Below, piece after piece: positions 2,941 through 62,667 of a stretch of DNA of 64,000 nt. The stretch lies in NCBI GenBank assembly GCA_016208975.1, contig JACQXA010000001.1, positions 65,834 through 129,833 on the forward strand, given 5' to 3'. How positions within the stretch are numbered: position 1 is the first letter of the stretch; each line of letters starts with the position of its first letter. The notes under the pieces are model-generated. The model saw only the letters and a list, made by a program, of their open reading frames with translations. It was not told where the DNA came from and searched no databases. Made by a program: the position numbers and the translations under genes. This stretch comes from Nitrospinota bacterium. GTDB taxonomy: Bacteria > Nitrospinota_A > UBA7883 > JACRLM01.

Positions 2941-3091
2941 GGTAGTGACTCAGTTTGAAAGTACAGGGGAGATTCTTCACTTACGCTCAGAATGACAATA
3001 TAAAAGCCGTTGATAACATTGTCATCCTGAGCGAAGCGCAAGCGGAGTGAAGGATCTGTCTATTATTTGAGATTCAAACTGAGACACCACC
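2941..3091 (-). mobile_element. MITE-like dispersed element, copy A
   Basis: About 151 bp with inverted ends (GGTAGTGACTCAGTTTGAA at the left; the complement of GGTGGTGTCTCAGTTTGAA at the right) and a long internal inverted repeat built on TCATTCTGAGCG and TCATCCTGAGCG arms. It encodes no protein. The same element recurs at 12520, 28385, 57112 and twice at 62418-62667. Copy A lies between the two 29-bp direct repeats. Strand is given relative to the copies at 12520, 28385 and 57112. Confidence 0.85.
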
Positions 3092-12519: not shown

Positions 12520-12671
12520 GGTGGTGTCTCAGTTTGGATCTCAAATAATAGACAGATCCTTCACTTCGCTTGCGCTTCGCTCAGGATGACAATGCGATCA
12601 ACGGCTTTTATATTGTCATTATGAGCGTAAGTGAAGAATCTCCCCCTGTACTTTCAAACTGAGACACTGCC
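12520..12671 (+). mobile_element. MITE-like dispersed element, copy B
   Basis: A 152-bp element from GGTGGTGTCTCAG to CTGAGACACTGCC. The flanking octamers are TAGCAGGG (12512-12519) and TGGCAGGG (12672-12679), differing at one position, as expected for a slightly decayed 8-bp target-site duplication. Confidence 0.87.
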
Positions 12672-28384: not shown

Positions 28385-28535
28385 GGTGGTGTCTCAGTTT
28401 GAATCTCAAATAATAGGCAGATCCTTCACTTCGCTGGCGCTTCGTTCAGGATGACAATGTTATCAACGGCTTTTATATTGTCATTCTGAGCGTAAGTGAA
28501 GAATCTCCCCTGTACTTTCAAACTGACACACTACC
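28385..28535 (+). mobile_element. MITE-like dispersed element, copy C with perfect 8-bp target duplication
   Basis: A 151-bp element, GGTGGTGTCTCAG to CACACTACC, flanked by identical octamers AGTTTTAG at 28377-28384 and 28536-28543. The right octamer contains the stop codon of the porin gene, so the insertion landed at the very end of that gene without changing its product. Confidence 0.9.
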
Positions 28536-50580: not shown

Positions 50581-51930
50581 CTAATGGATGTTAAGGGTTT
50601 TTATCTTCCGCCAGAGGGTGGTGCGGTTTATGCCGAGCATTTTAGCGGCCTTGGATTTTTGACCGGCGGTGATTTCCAGCGCCTCTTTTATGCGGGCGGG
50701 TTCATCCCCAGGCAGGTCGGTTAATGGCGTTGCCGGTGGTTTACCGGGGTAGGCGGTGGTCCGCAAAATCTCTTCCGGCAGGTCTTCCGGCTCTATAAGG
50801 CCCCCTTCGCAAAGGACGAAAGCCTGGGCGATGGCGTTTTCCAGCTCCCTTATGTTCCCCGGCCAGCGGTACCGGGCCATGGCTTTCATGGCCTCCCGGG
50901 AGATCCCTTTTATGGGTTTGCCGGTTTCGTTTCTCTGTTTTTCGATAAAGTGGTCCGCCAGCAGGGTTAAATCGTCTATCCGTTCCCTTAACGATGGCAG
51001 GTTTAAGCGCACCACTTTAAGCCTGTAATACAGGTCTTCCCGGAACAGCTTTTTCTCCACAAGTTCTTTCAGGTTTTGGTTGGTGGCGGATATTATCCGC
51101 ACGTCCACGTTGCGTTGCTGGGTGTCGCCCACTCTTTCTATGAGCTTGTCTTGAAGCACGGTGAGCAGTTTTACCTGGGTGGAGGGTGGGATTTCCCCGA
51201 TTTCGTCCAGAAATATGGTTCCGCCGTGGGCCAGCTCGAACCGGCCGATGCGGTCGCGATACGCTCCGGTGAAAGCGCCTTTCACATGGCCGAACAGTTC
51301 CGACTCCAGCAACGTTTCAGACAGCGCCGCGCAGTTCACCTTGATGAACGGCTCATCCCGCCGGCCCGATTTTTTATGGATGGCCTCGGCGACTAACCCT
51401 TTGCCCACGCCGGATTCGCCTTCTATCAAAACCGGCGCTTCGGCCTTGGCCACTTTATCTATAAGGGTGTAAACCTCCTGCATCTTGCGGTTGCGGCCGA
51501 TGAGCTTGAAATAGGAAGGGTGGGATTCCAGCCTTGTCTGCAGTTTTCTTATCTCGGAAATGTCATGGATGATGAGCATCACGCCGCCTTCTTCCCCCGC
51601 GGAGTCTCGCAGGATGGCGGTGGACATGATTACGGTGCGTTCGTCGCCGGTGTGGTCTATGAACTTGAAGGAATAGTTCTTTATAGGTTTCTTCTCTCTC
51701 ACGGTTTCCTGGAGGATGTCCTTGATGTCCACCAGCATCTCGTCGCAGAAACAGGATTTGCCCAGCGCCTCCTGCTTGGACACGCCGAAAAACCCCAGCG
51801 CCGCCTCGTTGATGTTTATCACCTTCATATGGCTGTCCAGCACGATTATGCCGTCGTGGACGGAGTTGAAAACCGCCTCCAGGTTGTCCTTGAGCGCCAG
51901 ACAGGCTTCGATGCGTTTGGTTTCATCCAT
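50581..51930 (-). CDS. PAS-domain sigma-54 enhancer-binding transcriptional activator
   Basis: A 449-residue activator. PAS domain (~residues 8-125, VFNSVHDGIIVLDSHMKVIN, with CFCDEM near residue 60), then an AAA+ domain with GESGVGKGLVAEAIH (Walker A), HVKGAFTGAYRDRIGRFELA (GAFTGA loop contacting sigma-54), GGTIFLDEIGEIPPSTQ (Walker B) and RWPGNIRELENAI; the C-terminus has a Fis-type helix-turn-helix (SKAAKMLGINRTTLWRKIKT). There is no receiver domain, so the signal is sensed by the PAS domain, perhaps through the cysteines. It lies just upstream of the UAS and the exporter operon it likely controls. Confidence 0.95.
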   Translation of the reverse strand: MDETKRIEACLALKDNLEAVFNSVHDGIIVLDSHMKVININEAALGFFGVSKQEALGKSCFCDEMLVDIKDILQETVREKKPIKNYSFKFIDHTGDERTVIMSTAILRDSAGEEGGVMLIIHDISEIRKLQTRLESHPSYFKLIGRNRKMQEVYTLIDKVAKAEAPVLIEGESGVGKGLVAEAIHKKSGRRDEPFIKVNCAALSETLLESELFGHVKGAFTGAYRDRIGRFELAHGGTIFLDEIGEIPPSTQVKLLTVLQDKLIERVGDTQQRNVDVRIISATNQNLKELVEKKLFREDLYYRLKVVRLNLPSLRERIDDLTLLADHFIEKQRNETGKPIKGISREAMKAMARYRWPGNIRELENAIAQAFVLCEGGLIEPEDLPEEILRTTAYPGKPPATPLTDLPGDEPARIKEALEITAGQKSKAAKMLGINRTTLWRKIKTLNIH

Positions 51931-51985: not shown

Positions 51986-52104
51986 AAAAAAGACCGCCAA
52001 GCCCATCGCTGGAACTGGACGGCCCAAGGTTTACCCCGTGAAGGGGTAAGCCTGCGAAGTAAACTTCTTGTTATGAATTCCGCGCAGGCTCCTATCTGAT
52101 ACAG
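51986..52104 (-). ncRNA. tracrRNA of the type II-C CRISPR system (minus strand)
   Basis: On the minus strand, bases 52101-52077 match 25 consecutive bases of the CRISPR repeat (the anti-repeat, with TCAGATAGGAGCC and GCGCGGAAT). After it come a small hairpin GAAGTTTACTTC (52067-52056), a perfect stem TTACCCC/GGGGTAA (52049-52031), and a terminator stem pairing 52024-52015 with 52001-51992 followed by TTTTTT (51991-51986). Predicted start is near 52104, so the RNA is about 119 nt. It pairs with crRNAs transcribed from the array's minus strand. Confidence 0.87.
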
Positions 52105-52109
52105 CCAAA

Positions 52110-52138
52110 AATATAATATACTCTTATCCAATTCGCAA
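52110..52138 (-). promoter_or_regulatory. Promoter of tracrRNA (and divergent cas9 control region)
   Basis: Minus strand TTGCGA (52138-52133) and TATATT (52115-52110) with 17-bp spacing, giving a start near 52104. A plus-strand TATAAT (52112-52117) overlaps it and could be the -10 of cas9, so the two transcripts may share and compete for one promoter region. Confidence 0.65.
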
Positions 52139-52163
52139 TGATTTTCTTGCAAGGGGGATAGTC

Positions 52164-55145
52164 ATGAAAATACTGGGGCTGGATATTGGCACAAATTCCA
52201 TCGGTTGGGCGGTCATCGAACGGGATGACGAAAAACTGGACGACGTGGCCGGAACAGGCAAGATATTGGGCGCCGGAGCGCGGGTATTCACCGCGCCGGT
52301 GGAGGATAAAACAGAAGCGCCCAAGAATCAGGAGCGCCGGGCAAAACGAGGCGCGCGGAAAATCCTTGCACGAAGAAAAATGAGACGTGAACATCTAACC
52401 AACATCTTGGTATCCACCGAAATGTTGCCTTCCGATAAAGATGAGCGGGAAAAACTATTGAACACGATAAATCCGTATAAAGCCAGAGCCGAAGGATTGG
52501 ATGGCAAAATATCTTTGTACGAGCTGGGCCGCGCCCTGTTCCACATGAACAAACGGCGGGGTTTTAAGAGCAACCGGAATGCGGACAGAAAAGAAAAGGA
52601 TAAAGATAAAAGCAAAGTCCTCGACGCCATTAAAGATCTTCAGGGAAGGATAGATCACAACGCCCGCACCCTTGGAGAATACCTTTATAAACAAAATAAC
52701 AGCCTGCTACGTAAACAGTACACCCACCGCAATATGTACGAAACCGAATTTGAGAAGCTATGGGCAACACAAGCGGCTTTTCATCCGGAATTGACGCAAG
52801 AGCTTAAGATAAAAATCAACAAGGCCATATTCTTTCAACGTCCCTTAAAGTCGCAAAAAGGCCTTGTGGGCTTTTGCGAGCTGGAGCGGAAAATATGGCG
52901 GAAACCGGATGGTGGATTAATAGACAAAGGCCCGCGCCGGGCCGCCAAATCTCATCCGTTGGCCCAAAGGATAAGGATGCTTCAGGATGTTACAAACCTG
53001 AAGGTAAATGCCCAATCTCTTAAAAAAGATCAACTGAAAACGATCATCGAGGCTATTGACGGCAAGCAAAAGCTGACGTGGGCGCAGGTAAAAAAATCGG
53101 CGGGCATACACAAGGAAACAAAGCTGAACCTGGAGGAAACAGGCAAGAAGCATATTCCAGGCGATTACACTTCTTTTAATATTGCTAAAGCGCTTGGGGC
53201 AAAGTGGCAGGCTCTGGACGTTACACAGCGTGAAAGTTTATATACCGACCTTACCACCATAGAAAACGAAGCGGCATTAATAAAACGCCTCACAGAAGGT
53301 TGGGGCTTTTCAAAAGATGAATCGGAGGCGCTGGCAAAAGTAGAACTGGAGGATGGCTATGCCGCCCATTCACTGAAAGCTATCAAAAAGCTTCTGCCTC
53401 ACATGGAAGCCGGTTTAACTTATCCGGAAGCCAAAATAGCCGCTGGGTATGGCGGGGTAAGCGGCGCCAGCGAAGGATTTAATGTATTGCCGGAACCGCC
53501 GCAGGTACGCAACCCGGTTGTCCAGAAAGCTCTTTATGAAACCCGCAAGGTGGTAAACGCCATCATCCGCAAGTTCGGCAAGCCGGACATTATTCGCGTC
53601 GAGTTGGCTAGAGACGCAAAACAACCGAAAAAAGTTAAAGATGAACGGCACAAACAGATGCGTGACCGGGAAGCGGAAAATGAAACCATAGACGCCGAAC
53701 TGAAAAATGAATTCGGCGTAGCCAAACCTACAAGAGAAGACAGGGACAAATACCGGTTATGGCTTGAATGCAACCGCACAAGCCCATATTCCGGAAAAGC
53801 GATAGGCAAGCAGGAGCTGTTCACCGCCGATGTTCAGGTTGAGCATATCCTCCCTTGGCAAAAATCGCTGGACAATTCCTATATGAACAAGACGCTTTGT
53901 TTTCAGAAGGAAAATCTTGAGAAAGGGGACAACACTCCTTTTCAGGCATGGAGCCATGATGAACAAAAATGGGGTGAAATAGAAAAGAGAATAGAATCAT
54001 TACCGCTGGCCAAACGCCGCCGCTTCTACATGACCGAAATTCCCGATGGTTTTCTTGACAGCCAGTTGACGGACACACGATATATCACAAAGGAGGTATG
54101 CGCCTATCTGAAATCAACAGGTGTCCGGGTGGACACAAACAAGGGCCTGTTCACCGCATGGTTGCGCGGCGAATGGGGTCTTTACGATATTTTGCCCAAG
54201 CGTAACTACGATTTGAAAGCGGGTAAGGACCGTTCCGATCATCGCCATCATGCCTTGGACGCGATAGTGATAGCCCTCACAGGCCCGTGGCAGGTACACA
54301 TGTTTAGCAGGGCCACATCGCGCGGCGATGGCAGGTTGCGATATTCAAACTTCCCGGTTCCGTGGAAAGGATTCCGTGACGATGCGCAAGCCGCCATTGA
54401 CGCAATCATCGTCTCCCATCGCGCCACGCGGAAAATACGGGGGGCGCTACACGAAGAAACTTCGTATGGGGCGACATCGGAAAAAGGCGTTTTCGTCCGG
54501 CGAAAGACCATTGAGACCATGACATATGCCGAAGTGAAACGTATCCGTGATGAGCGCATTCGTGATTTGATCCTTAAACGGATTGAGGAGCATGGAGGCG
54601 ATTGCAAGGCGGCGCTCAAAACTGAGTTTGTAATCGGAAAGCATTCCGTGAAAAAGGCCCGGCTACTTTACTCAATTAATAACGCTTTCCCAATATTGGA
54701 CAAGAAAGGCAAAGAATACCGCTTTCTAGAATATGGAAAAAACCACCATATTGAAATAATCAAACCCAAATCATCCGGCAAATGGGAGGGATGGGAAGAA
54801 GGGGATATCGTGACTATGATGGAGGCGGCGCGGCGAGCAAGGCCCAGAAAAGGTGAGGAAAAACGCCCAATTATCAACACGATTTGCGGCCCGGATAATG
54901 AGCTTGTCATGTCACTTTCCATCAACGAAATGCTGAGGATGAACGTGGACGGTGATGTAAGGATATATAGGGTTCAGAAGTTGTCCAAAGGATATTACGT
55001 TTTTAGAGAGCATTGCTCTGCTGGCACAGAAGATGAAACAAAGCCGGCAATGTTGCGAATTCAAAGTATGGGCGCATTGATGAGTTACAAACCTGAAAAA
55101 GTGACGGTCTCACCTATCGGCGAGGTGTTCCCCGCCCATGATTAA
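52164..55145 (+). CDS. cas9: CRISPR-associated endonuclease Cas9 (compact, type II-C)
   Basis: A 993-residue RNA-guided DNA endonuclease. RuvC-I is ILGLDIGTNSIGWAV (Asp7); the Arg-rich bridge helix is QERRAKRGARKILARRKMRR (~55-76); RuvC-II is IIRVELARD (Glu480); HNH is VEHILPWQKSLDNSYMNKTL (catalytic His561); RuvC-III is SDHRHHALDAIVIAL (His696/Asp699). All catalytic residues look intact. The length and neighbouring genes (only cas1 and cas2, no csn2 or cas4) fit type II-C. The last codons overlap cas1. GGGGGAT lies 8 nt before the ATG. Confidence 0.97.
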   Translation: MKILGLDIGTNSIGWAVIERDDEKLDDVAGTGKILGAGARVFTAPVEDKTEAPKNQERRAKRGARKILARRKMRREHLTNILVSTEMLPSDKDEREKLLNTINPYKARAEGLDGKISLYELGRALFHMNKRRGFKSNRNADRKEKDKDKSKVLDAIKDLQGRIDHNARTLGEYLYKQNNSLLRKQYTHRNMYETEFEKLWATQAAFHPELTQELKIKINKAIFFQRPLKSQKGLVGFCELERKIWRKPDGGLIDKGPRRAAKSHPLAQRIRMLQDVTNLKVNAQSLKKDQLKTIIEAIDGKQKLTWAQVKKSAGIHKETKLNLEETGKKHIPGDYTSFNIAKALGAKWQALDVTQRESLYTDLTTIENEAALIKRLTEGWGFSKDESEALAKVELEDGYAAHSLKAIKKLLPHMEAGLTYPEAKIAAGYGGVSGASEGFNVLPEPPQVRNPVVQKALYETRKVVNAIIRKFGKPDIIRVELARDAKQPKKVKDERHKQMRDREAENETIDAELKNEFGVAKPTREDRDKYRLWLECNRTSPYSGKAIGKQELFTADVQVEHILPWQKSLDNSYMNKTLCFQKENLEKGDNTPFQAWSHDEQKWGEIEKRIESLPLAKRRRFYMTEIPDGFLDSQLTDTRYITKEVCAYLKSTGVRVDTNKGLFTAWLRGEWGLYDILPKRNYDLKAGKDRSDHRHHALDAIVIALTGPWQVHMFSRATSRGDGRLRYSNFPVPWKGFRDDAQAAIDAIIVSHRATRKIRGALHEETSYGATSEKGVFVRRKTIETMTYAEVKRIRDERIRDLILKRIEEHGGDCKAALKTEFVIGKHSVKKARLLYSINNAFPILDKKGKEYRFLEYGKNHHIEIIKPKSSGKWEGWEEGDIVTMMEAARRARPRKGEEKRPIINTICGPDNELVMSLSINEMLRMNVDGDVRIYRVQKLSKGYYVFREHCSAGTEDETKPAMLRIQSMGALMSYKPEKVTVSPIGEVFPAHD

Positions 55146-56019
55146 ACGCACGGTGGAAATATCATCGGGCGCGGCGCATCTTTCCCTCCGGCTCAAACAG
55201 CTTTCAGTTAAACGGGAAGGGGAGGATGAGGTGACCGTCCCGCTGGAAGACCTTGGGATTCTCGTCATCAGCCACCCCAATGTCTCCATCACCAACGCCC
55301 TTCTGGCGGAATGCGCCTCGCAGAACATAACCGTGGTGTTTTGTGACATGAAGCATAAACCAAGCGGTGCCATGTTGCCCTTCTCCGGCCATAGCACCCA
55401 GGCGGAAACCATGGAGGCGCAGATTGCCGCCAGCCAACCGGTGAAAAAACGGATATGGCAGTACATCATCGAGGCAAAAATCGCGGGACAAGCCAAAGCG
55501 CTGGAGGCGTGTAGTGGCAAAGGAAAAGCGCTTTTCGAAATGGCCAAACAGGTGAAATCCGGCGACACGGAAAACATGGAGGCCCGCGCCGCCCAATATT
55601 ATTGGCCCCGGCTTTTCGGCAAGGATTTCCGGCGGGACAGGGAGGGCGGCCCGCCCAACTCCATCCTTAACTATGGCTATACGGTCATCCGCGCATCGGT
55701 GGCGCGCGCTCTTGTGGGCTCCGGGCTTCACCCTTCCTTGGGTGTGCATCACAGGAACCGTTATGACAGCTTCCGCCTGGCGGACGACGCCATGGAACCG
55801 TTAAGACCAATAGTGGACATAAAAGCGTTCGAGTTGTGGAAGGCCAACCCCGAAGTTGAAGTGGAAAAAGAAACCAAACGGGCAATGCTGGAAATTCTTG
55901 GAATGGATTTGAGGTTTAACGGCGAAAAAGAGCCATTCATGGAAGCGATGGCCCATTACGCCGCCTCTTTGCGGCGCGCCATCGCCGAGGGAGCGCCGCT
56001 TACGATACCGGAATGGTAA
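55138..56019 (+). CDS. cas1: CRISPR adaptation integrase Cas1
   Basis: A 293-residue Cas1 of the type II group: MIKRTVEISSGAAHLSLRLK, the N-terminal beta domain, and the catalytic helical domain with ARAAQYYWPRLFGKDFRRDR (catalytic Glu region), NYGYTVIRASVARALVGSGL, HPSLGVHHRNRYDSFRLADD (catalytic His) and MEPLRPIVDIKAFE (Asp). It inserts new spacers with Cas2. The ATG overlaps the cas9 stop by 8 nt, so translation is coupled. It is followed by an unusual 163-bp palindrome-rich gap before cas2. Confidence 0.96.
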   Translation: MIKRTVEISSGAAHLSLRLKQLSVKREGEDEVTVPLEDLGILVISHPNVSITNALLAECASQNITVVFCDMKHKPSGAMLPFSGHSTQAETMEAQIAASQPVKKRIWQYIIEAKIAGQAKALEACSGKGKALFEMAKQVKSGDTENMEARAAQYYWPRLFGKDFRRDREGGPPNSILNYGYTVIRASVARALVGSGLHPSLGVHHRNRYDSFRLADDAMEPLRPIVDIKAFELWKANPEVEVEKETKRAMLEILGMDLRFNGEKEPFMEAMAHYAASLRRAIAEGAPLTIPEW

Positions 56020-56182
56020 CTATCTCGCGTTCCGCTCCGGTTTCTCCCCCTGCCAGAGGGGGAGTGGCTCCAAAGGAGCCGAGGGGGTGGGAGCTCAAAG
56101 CAAATCGCTTACCACTCCGGCGGCTTTGCCGCCACCCCTCCCCATAAAGGAGGGGAAAAGGTAACGGCATGGGGAAGGGTAA
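56020..56182. repeat. Palindrome-rich insertion between cas1 and cas2
   Basis: Four hairpins in about 120 bp: CTCCCCCTGCCAGAGGGGGAG (56045-56065 approx.), GGCTCCAAAGGAGCC, GGCGGCTTTGCCGCC and CCCCTCCCCATAAAGGAGGGG. This looks like an inserted REP-type element between two genes normally coupled. No coding frame is supported. Confidence 0.7.
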
Positions 56183-56515
56183 ATGACAAGCTTTGGGGGA
56201 TTCCGCTCCATGTGGATTGTGCTTATGTTCGACCTTCCAGTGGTGGAGCCGGAAGAGCGCAAGGATGCCAACAGGTTCCGGAAAGATTTAAAAGGGTGCG
56301 GCTTTACCATGATGCAATTGTCGGTATATGTGCGGCACGCCGCAAGCGATGAGAATGCCCAGATTCACCTGAAAAGGGTGAAAGGGCTTTTACCGCCAAA
56401 AGGTGAGGTGCGGGCGATATTGATAACCGATAAACAGTTTGAACGTATGCAGGTTTTCTATGGAAAAATGCGCAAACCGGCGGAACGCGCCCCGGCCCAA
56501 CTGGAGTTTTTATGA
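56183..56515 (+). CDS. cas2: CRISPR-associated protein Cas2
   Basis: A 110-residue Cas2 with the type II-C N-terminus (GGFRSMWIVLMFDLPVVE), RFRKDLKGCGFTMMQLSVYV, DENAQIHLKRVKGLL and VRAILITDKQFERM. It is the central dimer of the Cas1-Cas2 integrase. The catalytic-type Asp in MFDLP is present. The C-terminus (ERAPAQLEFL) is normal. The CRISPR array begins about 50 bp downstream. Confidence 0.95.
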   Translation: MTSFGGFRSMWIVLMFDLPVVEPEERKDANRFRKDLKGCGFTMMQLSVYVRHAASDENAQIHLKRVKGLLPPKGEVRAILITDKQFERMQVFYGKMRKPAERAPAQLEFL

Positions 56516-56526
56516 ATTGAAGGCTC

Positions 56527-56568
56527 TAATAGGCCCTGCAAAACCAACCGGTTCTGCAAGGCCTATTA
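56527..56568. other. Perfect hairpin at the left border of the CRISPR array
   Basis: Arms TAATAGGCC and GGCCTATTA (9 bp, perfect) enclose nested pairing TGCA/TGCA and AACC/GGTT around loop AACC. The right arm overlaps the first four bases of repeat 1. There is no T-run, so it is not a standard terminator for either strand; it may end or protect the minus-strand array transcript. Confidence 0.7.
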
Positions 56569-56995
56569 TATCAGATAGGAGCCTGCGCGGAATCCACAAC
56601 AGTACATAGATGGATAGATACATGGTGTGTATTATATCAGATAGGAGCCTGCGCGGAATCCACAACCAGCGTTGCTTCTTTGCCCATCCCCGTCATATTA
56701 TATCAGATAGGAGCCTGCGCGGAATCCACAACCGGTGTCCCCTAACTGCATGGCTTTCTCGGATTATATCAGATAGGAGCCTGCGCGGAATCCACAACAG
56801 CTGTAGATGGATAGATACATGGTGTGTCATTATATCAGATAGGAGCCTGCGCGGAATCCACAACTTGTTTGCGGCGGATGTCAATTTTTTTATTATTATA
56901 TCAGATAGGAGCCTGCGCGGAATCCACAACCTCTACCGAATCACCGGATACTCTGCATAATTATATCAGATAGGAGCCTGCGCGGAATCCACAAC
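56565..56995 (-). CRISPR. CRISPR array, seven repeats and six spacers
   Basis: Seven identical 36-bp repeats (plus strand ATTATATCAGATAGG...GGAATCCACAAC) at 56565, 56631, 56697, 56763, 56829, 56895 and 56960. Spacers are 30, 30, 30, 30, 30 and 29 bp. Read on the minus strand, the repeat begins GTTGTGG and ends TGATATAAT, as in type II-C arrays. Because the tracrRNA lies on the minus strand and carries the repeat's plus-strand sense, functional crRNAs must come from the minus strand. Each repeat ends in an extended -10 (TGATATAAT), so every spacer can have its own promoter. Spacers 1 and 4 share 24 nt. Confidence 0.96.
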
Positions 56996-57111: not shown

Positions 57112-57261
57112 GGTGGTGTCTCAGTTTGAATCTCAAATAATAGACAGATCCTTCACTTCGCTTGCGCTTCGCTCAAGATGACAATGTTATCAACGGCTTT
57201 TATATTGTCATTCTGAGCGTAAGTGAAGAATCTCCCCTGTACTTTCAAACTGAGACACTCC
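57112..57261 (+). mobile_element. MITE-like dispersed element, copy D
   Basis: A 150-bp element, GGTGGTGTCTCAG to CTGAGACACTCC. Flanks share GGAAAC (57106-57111 left; 57264-57269 right), a decayed target duplication. It lies between the CRISPR array and miaB. Confidence 0.87.
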
Positions 57262-57324: not shown

Positions 57325-58638
57325 ATGACCCATAAGAAAAAACTGGCGATAATCACCTTGGGGTGCCAGATGAACCGGCACGATTCGGAATGGCTGGCGG
57401 GCGCCCTGGCGGATGAGTACGAATATACGGAAAACGAGACTCAGGCCGATTTCCTGGTGGTGAACACCTGCGCCGTAAGGGACAAGGCGGAGGCCAAATT
57501 CTTCTCGCTCATGGGGCGGTTGCGTCCATTGAAACACCAAAATAAAAACCTTGTGGTGGGCGTGGCCGGGTGCATCGCCCAGGAGCGTGGCGAGGCGCTG
57601 GTGCGGCGCGAACCTATCATAGACCTGGTTTTTGGCACCCGGGCGGTTCACAAAGTCCCCTCCATGCTCAAACAGTTCGAGGAGACAGGCCGCCCCCAGG
57701 TGGACACGTCTTCGGAGTCCGCTTTTGACGAGTTTCCCATGCGGCGGGAATCTTCCATCTCCGCCTGGGTGGCCATCATGCGCGGGTGTAACAACGCCTG
57801 TTCATACTGCATCGTCCCTCAAACCCGTGGCCCGGAAGAAAGCAGGCCGGTGGAAAGCATTTTGAATGAAGTACGGAACCTTGCGGAGAAAGGCTACAAA
57901 GAGATAACCCTGCTGGGGCAGAACGTGAACAGCTACGGAATGAACCTTTCGCCCCGGGCAACTTTTCCGGAACTTCTCCGGCGGATTCACGCTGTCTGTG
58001 GTGATATGAGGATCAGGTTCGTCACCAGCCACCCAAAAGACATGAGCGACGAGCTGATATCCGCCATGGCGGAGTTACCGGGGATTTGCCCTTCCATGCA
58101 TCTGCCTATCCAGTCCGGATCGGACAGGATATTGAGCCTGATGAACCGGAACTACACCGCCGCCCATTATTTCGACAGGGTGGAAAAGCTTAAAGCCAAA
58201 GTGCCCGATTTATCCATAACTACCGATATTATTGTGGGTTTCCCCGGTGAAGCTGAAAGCGATTTCGAGCAAACCGTTCAAGCGGTTTTACAAGCCCGGT
58301 ACGACAACATATATTTATTCAAATATTCGCCAAGACCCGGAACGGAAGCGGAGAAACTAATGGACAGGGTGGATCCGGTAGTGGCGCAAACCCGGTTCGA
58401 CCGGATTTTGGTCATGCAAAAGCGCATAACCAAAGAACGGTTCAAGGAAATGACAGGCAGGGATTCGGAGCTGTTGGTGGAAGGGCCAAGTAAACGGGAT
58501 CCGGCGCGGTATTGCGGAAGGAACCCGCAAAACATGATGGTGAATTTCGGCTCGGACAAGGATTTAACCGGCCGATTTGTTCATGTTAAGATAACTGGAA
58601 GCGGACAGCATAGCCTGGAAGGCAAGTTGGCCGGCTGA
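57325..58638 (+). CDS. miaB: tRNA-2-methylthio-N6-dimethylallyladenosine synthase
   Basis: A 437-residue radical-SAM methylthiotransferase modifying A37 of tRNAs reading U-starting codons. The N-terminal UPF0004 domain has cluster cysteines in ITLGCQMN, VVNTCAVRDKAE and GVAGCIAQERG. The radical-SAM motif is GCNNACSYCIVPQTRG (C-x3-C-x2-C), and the C-terminal TRAM domain contains RFKEMTGRDSELLVEGPSK and GRFVHVKITGS. Length and motifs fit MiaB. The dimethylallyl-transferase gene miaA is not in the window. Confidence 0.95.
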   Translation: MTHKKKLAIITLGCQMNRHDSEWLAGALADEYEYTENETQADFLVVNTCAVRDKAEAKFFSLMGRLRPLKHQNKNLVVGVAGCIAQERGEALVRREPIIDLVFGTRAVHKVPSMLKQFEETGRPQVDTSSESAFDEFPMRRESSISAWVAIMRGCNNACSYCIVPQTRGPEESRPVESILNEVRNLAEKGYKEITLLGQNVNSYGMNLSPRATFPELLRRIHAVCGDMRIRFVTSHPKDMSDELISAMAELPGICPSMHLPIQSGSDRILSLMNRNYTAAHYFDRVEKLKAKVPDLSITTDIIVGFPGEAESDFEQTVQAVLQARYDNIYLFKYSPRPGTEAEKLMDRVDPVVAQTRFDRILVMQKRITKERFKEMTGRDSELLVEGPSKRDPARYCGRNPQNMMVNFGSDKDLTGRFVHVKITGSGQHSLEGKLAG

Positions 58639-58661: not shown

Positions 58662-59171
58662 ATGAGCGAACGCAAAGACATAGTCGAGATGAAGGTGGAA
58701 GGGCTGGTATTCGACCCTGTCACCAACACCCCCATAATTATTCTCAAGGATTCGGGCGGGGCAAAATCCCTGCCTATATGGGTTGGCTATCCTGAAGCCA
58801 CGGCCATAGCGCTGGAGATGGAGTCTGTGGCCACGCCACGGCCCATGACGCACGACCTTATCAAAAACCTTTTGGGTTCGCTGAAAGCCAAGGTGAACCA
58901 CATCACCGTGTGCGACCTGAAGAACAACACGTTCTACGCCATCATAAACATCACTATTAATGGCAATACTCTGGAGGTGGATTCGCGCCCGTCGGACGCC
59001 ATAGCGGTAGCCTTGCGGGTGAAAGCGCCCATATACGTTTCCAACAGCGTTCTGGAAAACGCAAAGACCATGGAAAACGCCGCTACGGCGCCGGAACCGG
59101 AAGATGAGGAAGCGTTCAAAAAATGGCTACACAACGCCAAACCATCGGACTTCGGAAGTATAGACCAATAA
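58662..59171 (+). CDS. Bifunctional nuclease-family (DUF151) protein
   Basis: A 169-residue protein of the BFN/DUF151 family, found widely in bacteria and plants: VEGLVFDPVTNTPIIILKDS, GAKSLPIWVGYPEATAIALE, RPMTHDLIKNLL, SRPSDAIAVALRVKAPIYVS. Reported members have RNase/DNase activity. The C-terminal tail (EDEEAFKKWLHNAKPSDFGS) is normal. It follows miaB by 23 bp and is probably co-transcribed. Confidence 0.9.
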   Translation: MSERKDIVEMKVEGLVFDPVTNTPIIILKDSGGAKSLPIWVGYPEATAIALEMESVATPRPMTHDLIKNLLGSLKAKVNHITVCDLKNNTFYAIINITINGNTLEVDSRPSDAIAVALRVKAPIYVSNSVLENAKTMENAATAPEPEDEEAFKKWLHNAKPSDFGSIDQ

Positions 59172-62400: not shown

Positions 62401-62418
62401 CCGAGGTCAGCGACCTCG
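62401..62418. repeat. REP-like palindrome fused to a MITE copy
   Basis: CCGAGGTCAGCGACCTCG, a member of the REP-like family, directly replaces the usual left end of truncated MITE copy E. Confidence 0.8.
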
Positions 62419-62667
62419 TTTGAAAGTACAGGGGAGATTCTTCACTTACGCTCAGAATGACAATATAAGAGCCGTTGATAACATTGTCATCCTGAGCGAA
62501 GCGCAAGCGAAGTGAAGGATCTGTCTGTAGTGTCTCAGTTTGAAAGTACAGGGGAGATTCTTCACTTACGCTCAGAATGACAATATAAAAGCCGTTGATA
62601 ACATTGTCATCCTGAGCGAAGCGCAAGCGAAGTGAAGGATCTGTCCATTATTTGAGATGCAAACTGA
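62418..62667 (-). mobile_element. Two tandem MITE copies (E truncated, F nearly full)
   Basis: Copy E (62418-62526) lacks both terminal inverted repeats, beginning at GTTTGAAAGTACAGGGG and ending at GGATCTGTCT. Copy F (62527-62667) starts GTAGTGTCTCAG and ends at AAACTGA, missing only the last few bases. F supplies the 3' end of the tautomerase gene. The two inner segments are nearly identical, so this is either a tandem duplication or an insertion of one copy into another followed by loss. Confidence 0.87.

Follow-up and report, generated by a model that had tools for sequence, protein, structure and literature searches.

Positions 51986 to 56995 of the window, that is, of the whole 64,000-nucleotide stretch of Nitrospinota DNA analyzed here, very probably contain a type II-C CRISPR-Cas9 immune system that is complete and present in a single copy, and the sequence suggests that this system is probably functional and of an ordinary kind. 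ORF calling together with Pfam and NCBIfam models identified a cas9 gene (993 aa), cas1 and cas2; the locus also has a minus-strand tracrRNA and an array with seven identical 36-nt repeats. Neither a second Cas9 nor a second array was found when the 2.97-Mb genome was searched, and RNase III is encoded in the host genome. Four features place the locus in type II-C: cas1 and cas2 are present, with no csn2 (II-A) and no cas4 (II-B) within the locus; the Cas9 keeps both its RuvC and its HNH nuclease residues; a tracrRNA bearing an anti-repeat adjoins cas9; and the Cas9 groups with relatives that all come from II-C-like loci, in a tree without II-A or II-B rows. The first-pass annotation had described a complete type II-C locus, and this description was confirmed. 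The II-C assignment is supported in that the gene set is cas9-cas1-cas2 alone, Cas1 is of the NMENI family, and the neighbors (a PAS/sigma-54 regulator at 50581-51930, a MiaB-like radical SAM protein at 57325-58638 and a bifunctional-nuclease-domain protein at 58662-59171) are unrelated.

The Cas9 protein

The cas9 gene (52164-55145, plus strand) is one open frame of 993 aa, matched over its full length by TIGR01865 (677 bits) and carrying the Pfam domains HNH_4, RuvC_III and Cas9_a. Its nuclease residues are D7 (RuvC-I), E480 (RuvC-II), E560-H561-N584 (HNH) and H693/H696/D699 (RuvC-III). In an alignment of 37 sequences, D7, E480, H561, N584, H693, H696 and D699 are invariant, barring one fragment that has no N-terminus. 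The intact 993-aa protein with Asp7, Glu480, His561 and His696/Asp699 that had been reported earlier is confirmed. The acidic residue of the HNH domain is Glu560, as it is in 24 of the 37 aligned relatives.

A structural prediction, which the first-pass annotation had proposed as a check, was made with AlphaFold from the alignment (mean pLDDT 82.8, pTM 0.58); given these two scores, the placement of the domains in the model is uncertain. When this model was used in Foldseek searches, Nme1Cas9 came first (E 6e-51, about 22% identity), followed by the Hpa, Thermo and Geo Cas9s, and the predicted fold agrees with that of all four enzymes. Small size was considered as a special trait and then dropped, since the protein is without only about 30 scattered majority columns of the 37-sequence alignment; 993 aa is the low end of the ordinary size range, complete relatives being 971 to about 1200 aa long among the best 80 of 496.

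It is very unlikely that this Cas9 is of an unusual subtype, either II-D-like or new, instead of II-C. Such a reading could appeal to the compact size and to a weak match to the Cas9d model of NCBIfam, but this match reaches 110.6 bits against a cut-off of 375, so that membership in type II-D is not indicated. The full-length TIGR01865 match, the presence of Nme1, Hpa and Geo, all of them II-C enzymes, among the nearest structures, the gene set, the 36-nt repeats and the length of the relatives (970-1200 aa) all argue for II-C.

cas1, cas2 and the CRISPR array

The cas1 gene (55138-56019, plus strand) codes for a type II protein of 293 aa (TIGR03639, 294 bits) in which, according to the alignment, residues E148, H205 and E220 are retained. 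The cas2 gene (56183-56515, plus strand) codes for 110 aa (TIGR01573, 62 bits; Cas2_II in PADLOC). Overlapping genes had been claimed for this locus, and this holds for cas9 and cas1, which overlap by 8 bp, but not for cas2, which is preceded by a gap of 163 bp (56020-56182). This gap contains part of a dispersed palindromic repeat of the CTCCCCCTGCCAGAGGGGGAG type, with three weaker copies (78-84%) elsewhere in the genome. Between cas2 and the array is a hairpin (56527-56568) that is perhaps a terminator; a different hairpin occupies the same position in G022, the sister locus from the class of the window's host (L015/L016).

The array (56565-56995, crRNA predicted on the minus strand) consists of seven 36-nt repeats, letter-identical as the first-pass annotation had stated, and of six spacers, of which five are 30 nt long and one is 29 nt long. 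A genome search allowing 3 mismatches returned eight places for the repeat, namely the seven array repeats and one anti-repeat. The orientation of the crRNA was predicted from the pairing with the tracrRNA and from the GTTGTG start; in this sense the repeat reads GTTGTGGATTCCGCGCAGGCTCCTATCTGATATAAT, begins with GTTGTG and ends in a perfect extended -10 box (TGATATAAT). Because such a box ends each repeat, short pre-crRNAs are probably started within each spacer unit, each unit putatively giving its own transcript. This arrangement has been reported for Neisseria meningitidis, in which every repeat contains a promoter and RNase III is not required (PMC5052741, PMC10309648).

Spacers 1 and 4 (56601-56630 and 56799-56828) have a 24-nt block in common (TAGATGGATAGATACATGGTGTGT) with a one-base offset, and at the end predicted to be PAM-proximal they differ in all six bases. 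The six spacers are therefore not six unrelated sequences, and spacers 1 and 4 perhaps stem from a repeated viral sequence sampled in two different contexts. An Rfam match to sRNA P36 directly after the array was sub-threshold (E 0.017) and was judged to be due to chance.

The tracrRNA and guide architecture

The tracrRNA (51986-52104, minus strand) is predicted to start at about 52104 and to end in a hairpin plus U6 (51986-52025), in agreement with the divergent tracrRNA with its own terminator that had been noted before. A sigma-70-like promoter (TTGCGA-17-TATATT, 52110-52138, minus strand) lies upstream of the tracrRNA, 5-6 nt from the point where the RNA is predicted to start, in a region with 2 sigma-70-like sites as compared to 0.3 expected. 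The anti-repeat (52070-52101, minus strand) is the sole one in the 2.97-Mb genome, and in cofolding it forms a bulge-free duplex of 32 bp, two G-U pairs included, with the repeat. It is followed on the same strand by SL1 (52056-52069; GAAG-UUUA-CUUC), a linker (52050-52055; GCAGGC), SL2 (52031-52049; UUACCCC-UUCAC-GGGGUAA, then ACC) and the terminator hairpin (51991-52025, with U6 at 51986-51991). A consensus terminator scan did not list this hairpin, although it is seen in the fold. When RNAalifold was applied to the tracrRNA cores, covariation recovered the terminator stem alone; the evidence for SL1 and SL2 is therefore that of folds of single sequences and of alignment by eye.

The plan SL1, CG[C/U]AGG linker, SL2, ACC and terminator hairpin is common to more than 15 relatives. 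The guide architecture, thought possibly new in the first-pass annotation, is thus not new. The linker, as CGCAGGC (52050-52055), is perfectly complementary to GCCUGCG in the anti-repeat (52080-52090), and for this reason a fold-back is predicted for the tracrRNA when it is free. Among the relatives, this complementarity is perfect in L029, near-perfect in G022, L034 and L041, and absent from L014, L023 and L024.

Cas1-Cas2 complexes of this family are known to insert spacers. If the system works as its parts suggest, Cas1-Cas2 would insert 30-bp spacers between the 36-nt repeats, and the extended -10 boxes at the repeat ends would start short pre-crRNAs from the minus strand as they do in N. 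meningitidis. The tracrRNA would be transcribed from a separate promoter that lies upstream of cas9, and would pair with the repeat over 32 bp; the tracrRNA-crRNA duplex would be trimmed by RNase III, and Cas9 would hold the RNA pair via SL1, linker and SL2. DNA matching the spacer and having a PAM on its 3' side would then be cut, with HNH cleaving the target strand and RuvC the opposite one.

Relationship to other II-C systems

A single-sequence scan of genomes returned no relatives, but the family was found when an alignment of four sequences was used to scan the GTDB species genomes, giving 496 candidate Cas9 stretches of which the best 80 were kept. Among these 80, the nearest identity to the window Cas9 is 45% (L024). 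FastTree places the window Cas9 in a clade of 19 rows (support 97) together with proteins from Nitrosomonadales, Acidobacteria, Myxococcota, Lambdaproteobacteria, Methylococcales and Binatia MAGs, and in the IQ-TREE phylogeny it is a lone deep branch (support 94) at the base of a clade of Nitrosomonadales, Acidobacteria, Methylococcales and Binatia MAG proteins. Many relatives have the order of genes, the type of repeat and the modules of the tracrRNA in common with the window. In the host phylum, a Cas9 above the family cut-off was present in 4 of the 24 genomes examined, and in two of these (G003 and G013) the II-C lineage is quite a different one, whose repeats resemble those of Neisseria.

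The closest named relatives are those of Nitrosomonadales/Nitrosospira (L023, L024), Acidobacteria (L025), Gammaproteobacteria RIFOXYD12 (L026), Methylococcales and Binatia MAGs. Their Cas9s are about 34-45% identical to that of the window, their repeats agree at 22-28 of 36 bases, and their loci have the same order of tracrRNA, cas9, cas1, cas2 and array as well as the same tracrRNA modules; the window Cas9 branches outside all of them (support 94). No experimental characterization of these Cas9s was found in the literature searched. The closest repeat (29/36) is that of G022, where cas1 is 51% and cas2 62% identical and the tracrRNA linker is the same. The G022 cas9 is split over two contigs and about 41% identical over the C-terminal 565 aa, and the G022 anti-repeat differs in having an extra hairpin.

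Among studied systems, that of Nme1Cas9 (N. meningitidis; PDB 6JE4, 6JDV) has the same cas9-cas1-cas2 set and the same Cas9 fold (Foldseek E 6e-51). Its 36-nt repeats also begin with GTTGT and also have a TGnTAnAAT box at the repeat end, and its PAM lies 3' of the protospacer, as is predicted for the window. However, the Cas9 identity is just 22-23% in structural alignment, the repeat body differs, and the window tracrRNA has the bulge-free 32-bp duplex and the CG[C/U]AGG linker. ThermoCas9/GeoCas9 (PDB 9AR4, 8JTJ, 8UZA) gave the best PDB sequence matches (E 3.5e-64) and have the same domains, with 23% identity in structural alignment; in phmmer alignments, the N-terminal and nuclease parts align but the C-terminal PAM-interacting part hardly does. 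At 22-23% identity and with the C-terminus unaligned to Geo/Thermo by phmmer, membership in the Nme/Geo-type group of characterized enzymes with known PAMs is not indicated. Nesting within a characterized group with a known PAM, which the first-pass annotation had named as evidence against novelty, was not seen in a comparison that covered a minority of the characterized orthologs. By sequence, the window Cas9 is a distant relative of studied Cas9s within a well-known kind.

Three IMG/VR contigs classed as viral (L103, L104 and L105) encode a II-C Cas9, with cas1 and cas2 on two of them; these represent either phage-borne CRISPR or host contamination.

Spacer targets and candidate PAM

Matching of the spacers, proposed earlier as a way to derive the PAM, gave no protospacer in any of the collections searched. 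Exact IMG/VR scans, one each with the 24-nt block of spacers 1 and 4 and with 20-mers of spacers 2, 3, 5 and 6, returned none; when the six spacers were compared by blastn with 50,697 phage and 72,556 plasmid records, chance matches only were obtained; and none was present in the window's own genome or the 24 phylum genomes. Thirty-seven spacers from relatives had no match in phages.

Three spacers of the G022 array match, exactly or nearly so, contigs that belong to the G022 bin itself. Spacers 3 and 9 match a contig with genes for a major head protein, a portal/head-tail adaptor and a terminase, and spacer 5 matches a contig with an integrase; spacer 9 differs from its protospacer at a single position, the second base counted from the PAM. 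The 3' flanks in the crRNA sense (GCGGACTT, AAGTACCA and GGGAACCG) agree at G3, A5 and C6, giving 5'-NNGNAC-3'. When random triples are taken from these contigs, 1.2% of them (a chance of about 0.012) have at least three invariant columns of eight, and the 5' side of the protospacers has one invariant column. NNGNAC is thus a candidate PAM of the sister enzyme, and the match of its spacers to phage-like DNA with an agreeing 3' flank suggests that phage DNA is acquired by such systems. Relatives of the G022 phage in IMG/VR, about 80 in number, yielded no further protospacers. The phage-like contigs binned with G022 are L133 (G022:C156) and L132 (G022:C278); as they hold protospacers of its own II-C array, phage and host are linked.

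If the window enzyme is sister-like, its PAM may be near NNGNAC. This transfer is hypothetical because PAM-interacting domains change fast between close orthologs, and diverse PAMs have been reported for close II-C orthologs (PMC9433092). When relatives' spacers were compared to their own genomes, one further match was obtained, for spacer 6 of a Crenothrix array (29/30, 97%). The 3' flank of this protospacer (L149:500-529, G067:C84) is TTTATATT, unlike NNGNAC, which suggests that the Crenothrix branch has a different PAM. It is rather unlikely, but worth stating, that the window Cas9 represents a separate uncharacterized II-C lineage of less than 1000 aa that needs an uncommon PAM near NNGNAC and in which the tracrRNA fold-back would mask the anti-repeat until the crRNA arrives.

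Is the locus active?

The first-pass annotation took the system to be active. This is plausible, with the parts intact, the repeats identical and RNase III encoded; set against it are a short array, spacers without a matched target, and no sign of recent acquisition or expression. The locus might be intact and yet dormant, having been acquired and having taken up few spacers before adaptation or interference was lost. The six unmatched spacers, the repeat element between cas1 and cas2, the lone long branch of the Cas9 and the presence of a Cas9 above the family cut-off in merely 4 of 24 phylum genomes are in line with dormancy. Nevertheless, it seems improbable: the frames are unbroken, the repeats letter-identical, all catalytic residues retained, and the tracrRNA promoter and pairing intact, and missing targets are to be expected where hosts are uncultured and their viruses poorly sampled.

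With a probably functional system as the preferred reading, the locus adds a compact, deep-branching and apparently intact Cas9 with a defined guide, from a lineage without experimental work in the literature searched. It offers a candidate genome-editing enzyme, a branch for Cas9 phylogeny and, via the sister system, a concrete PAM hypothesis; the understanding of CRISPR is left unchanged by it.

A MITE-like element of 148 bp (57112-57259) has 15-bp perfect terminal inverted repeats (GTGTCTCAGTTTGAA), and about five further full or partial copies with 96-98% identity are present in the window, including those at 2944-3091, 12520-12668, 28385-28532 and 62418-62667.
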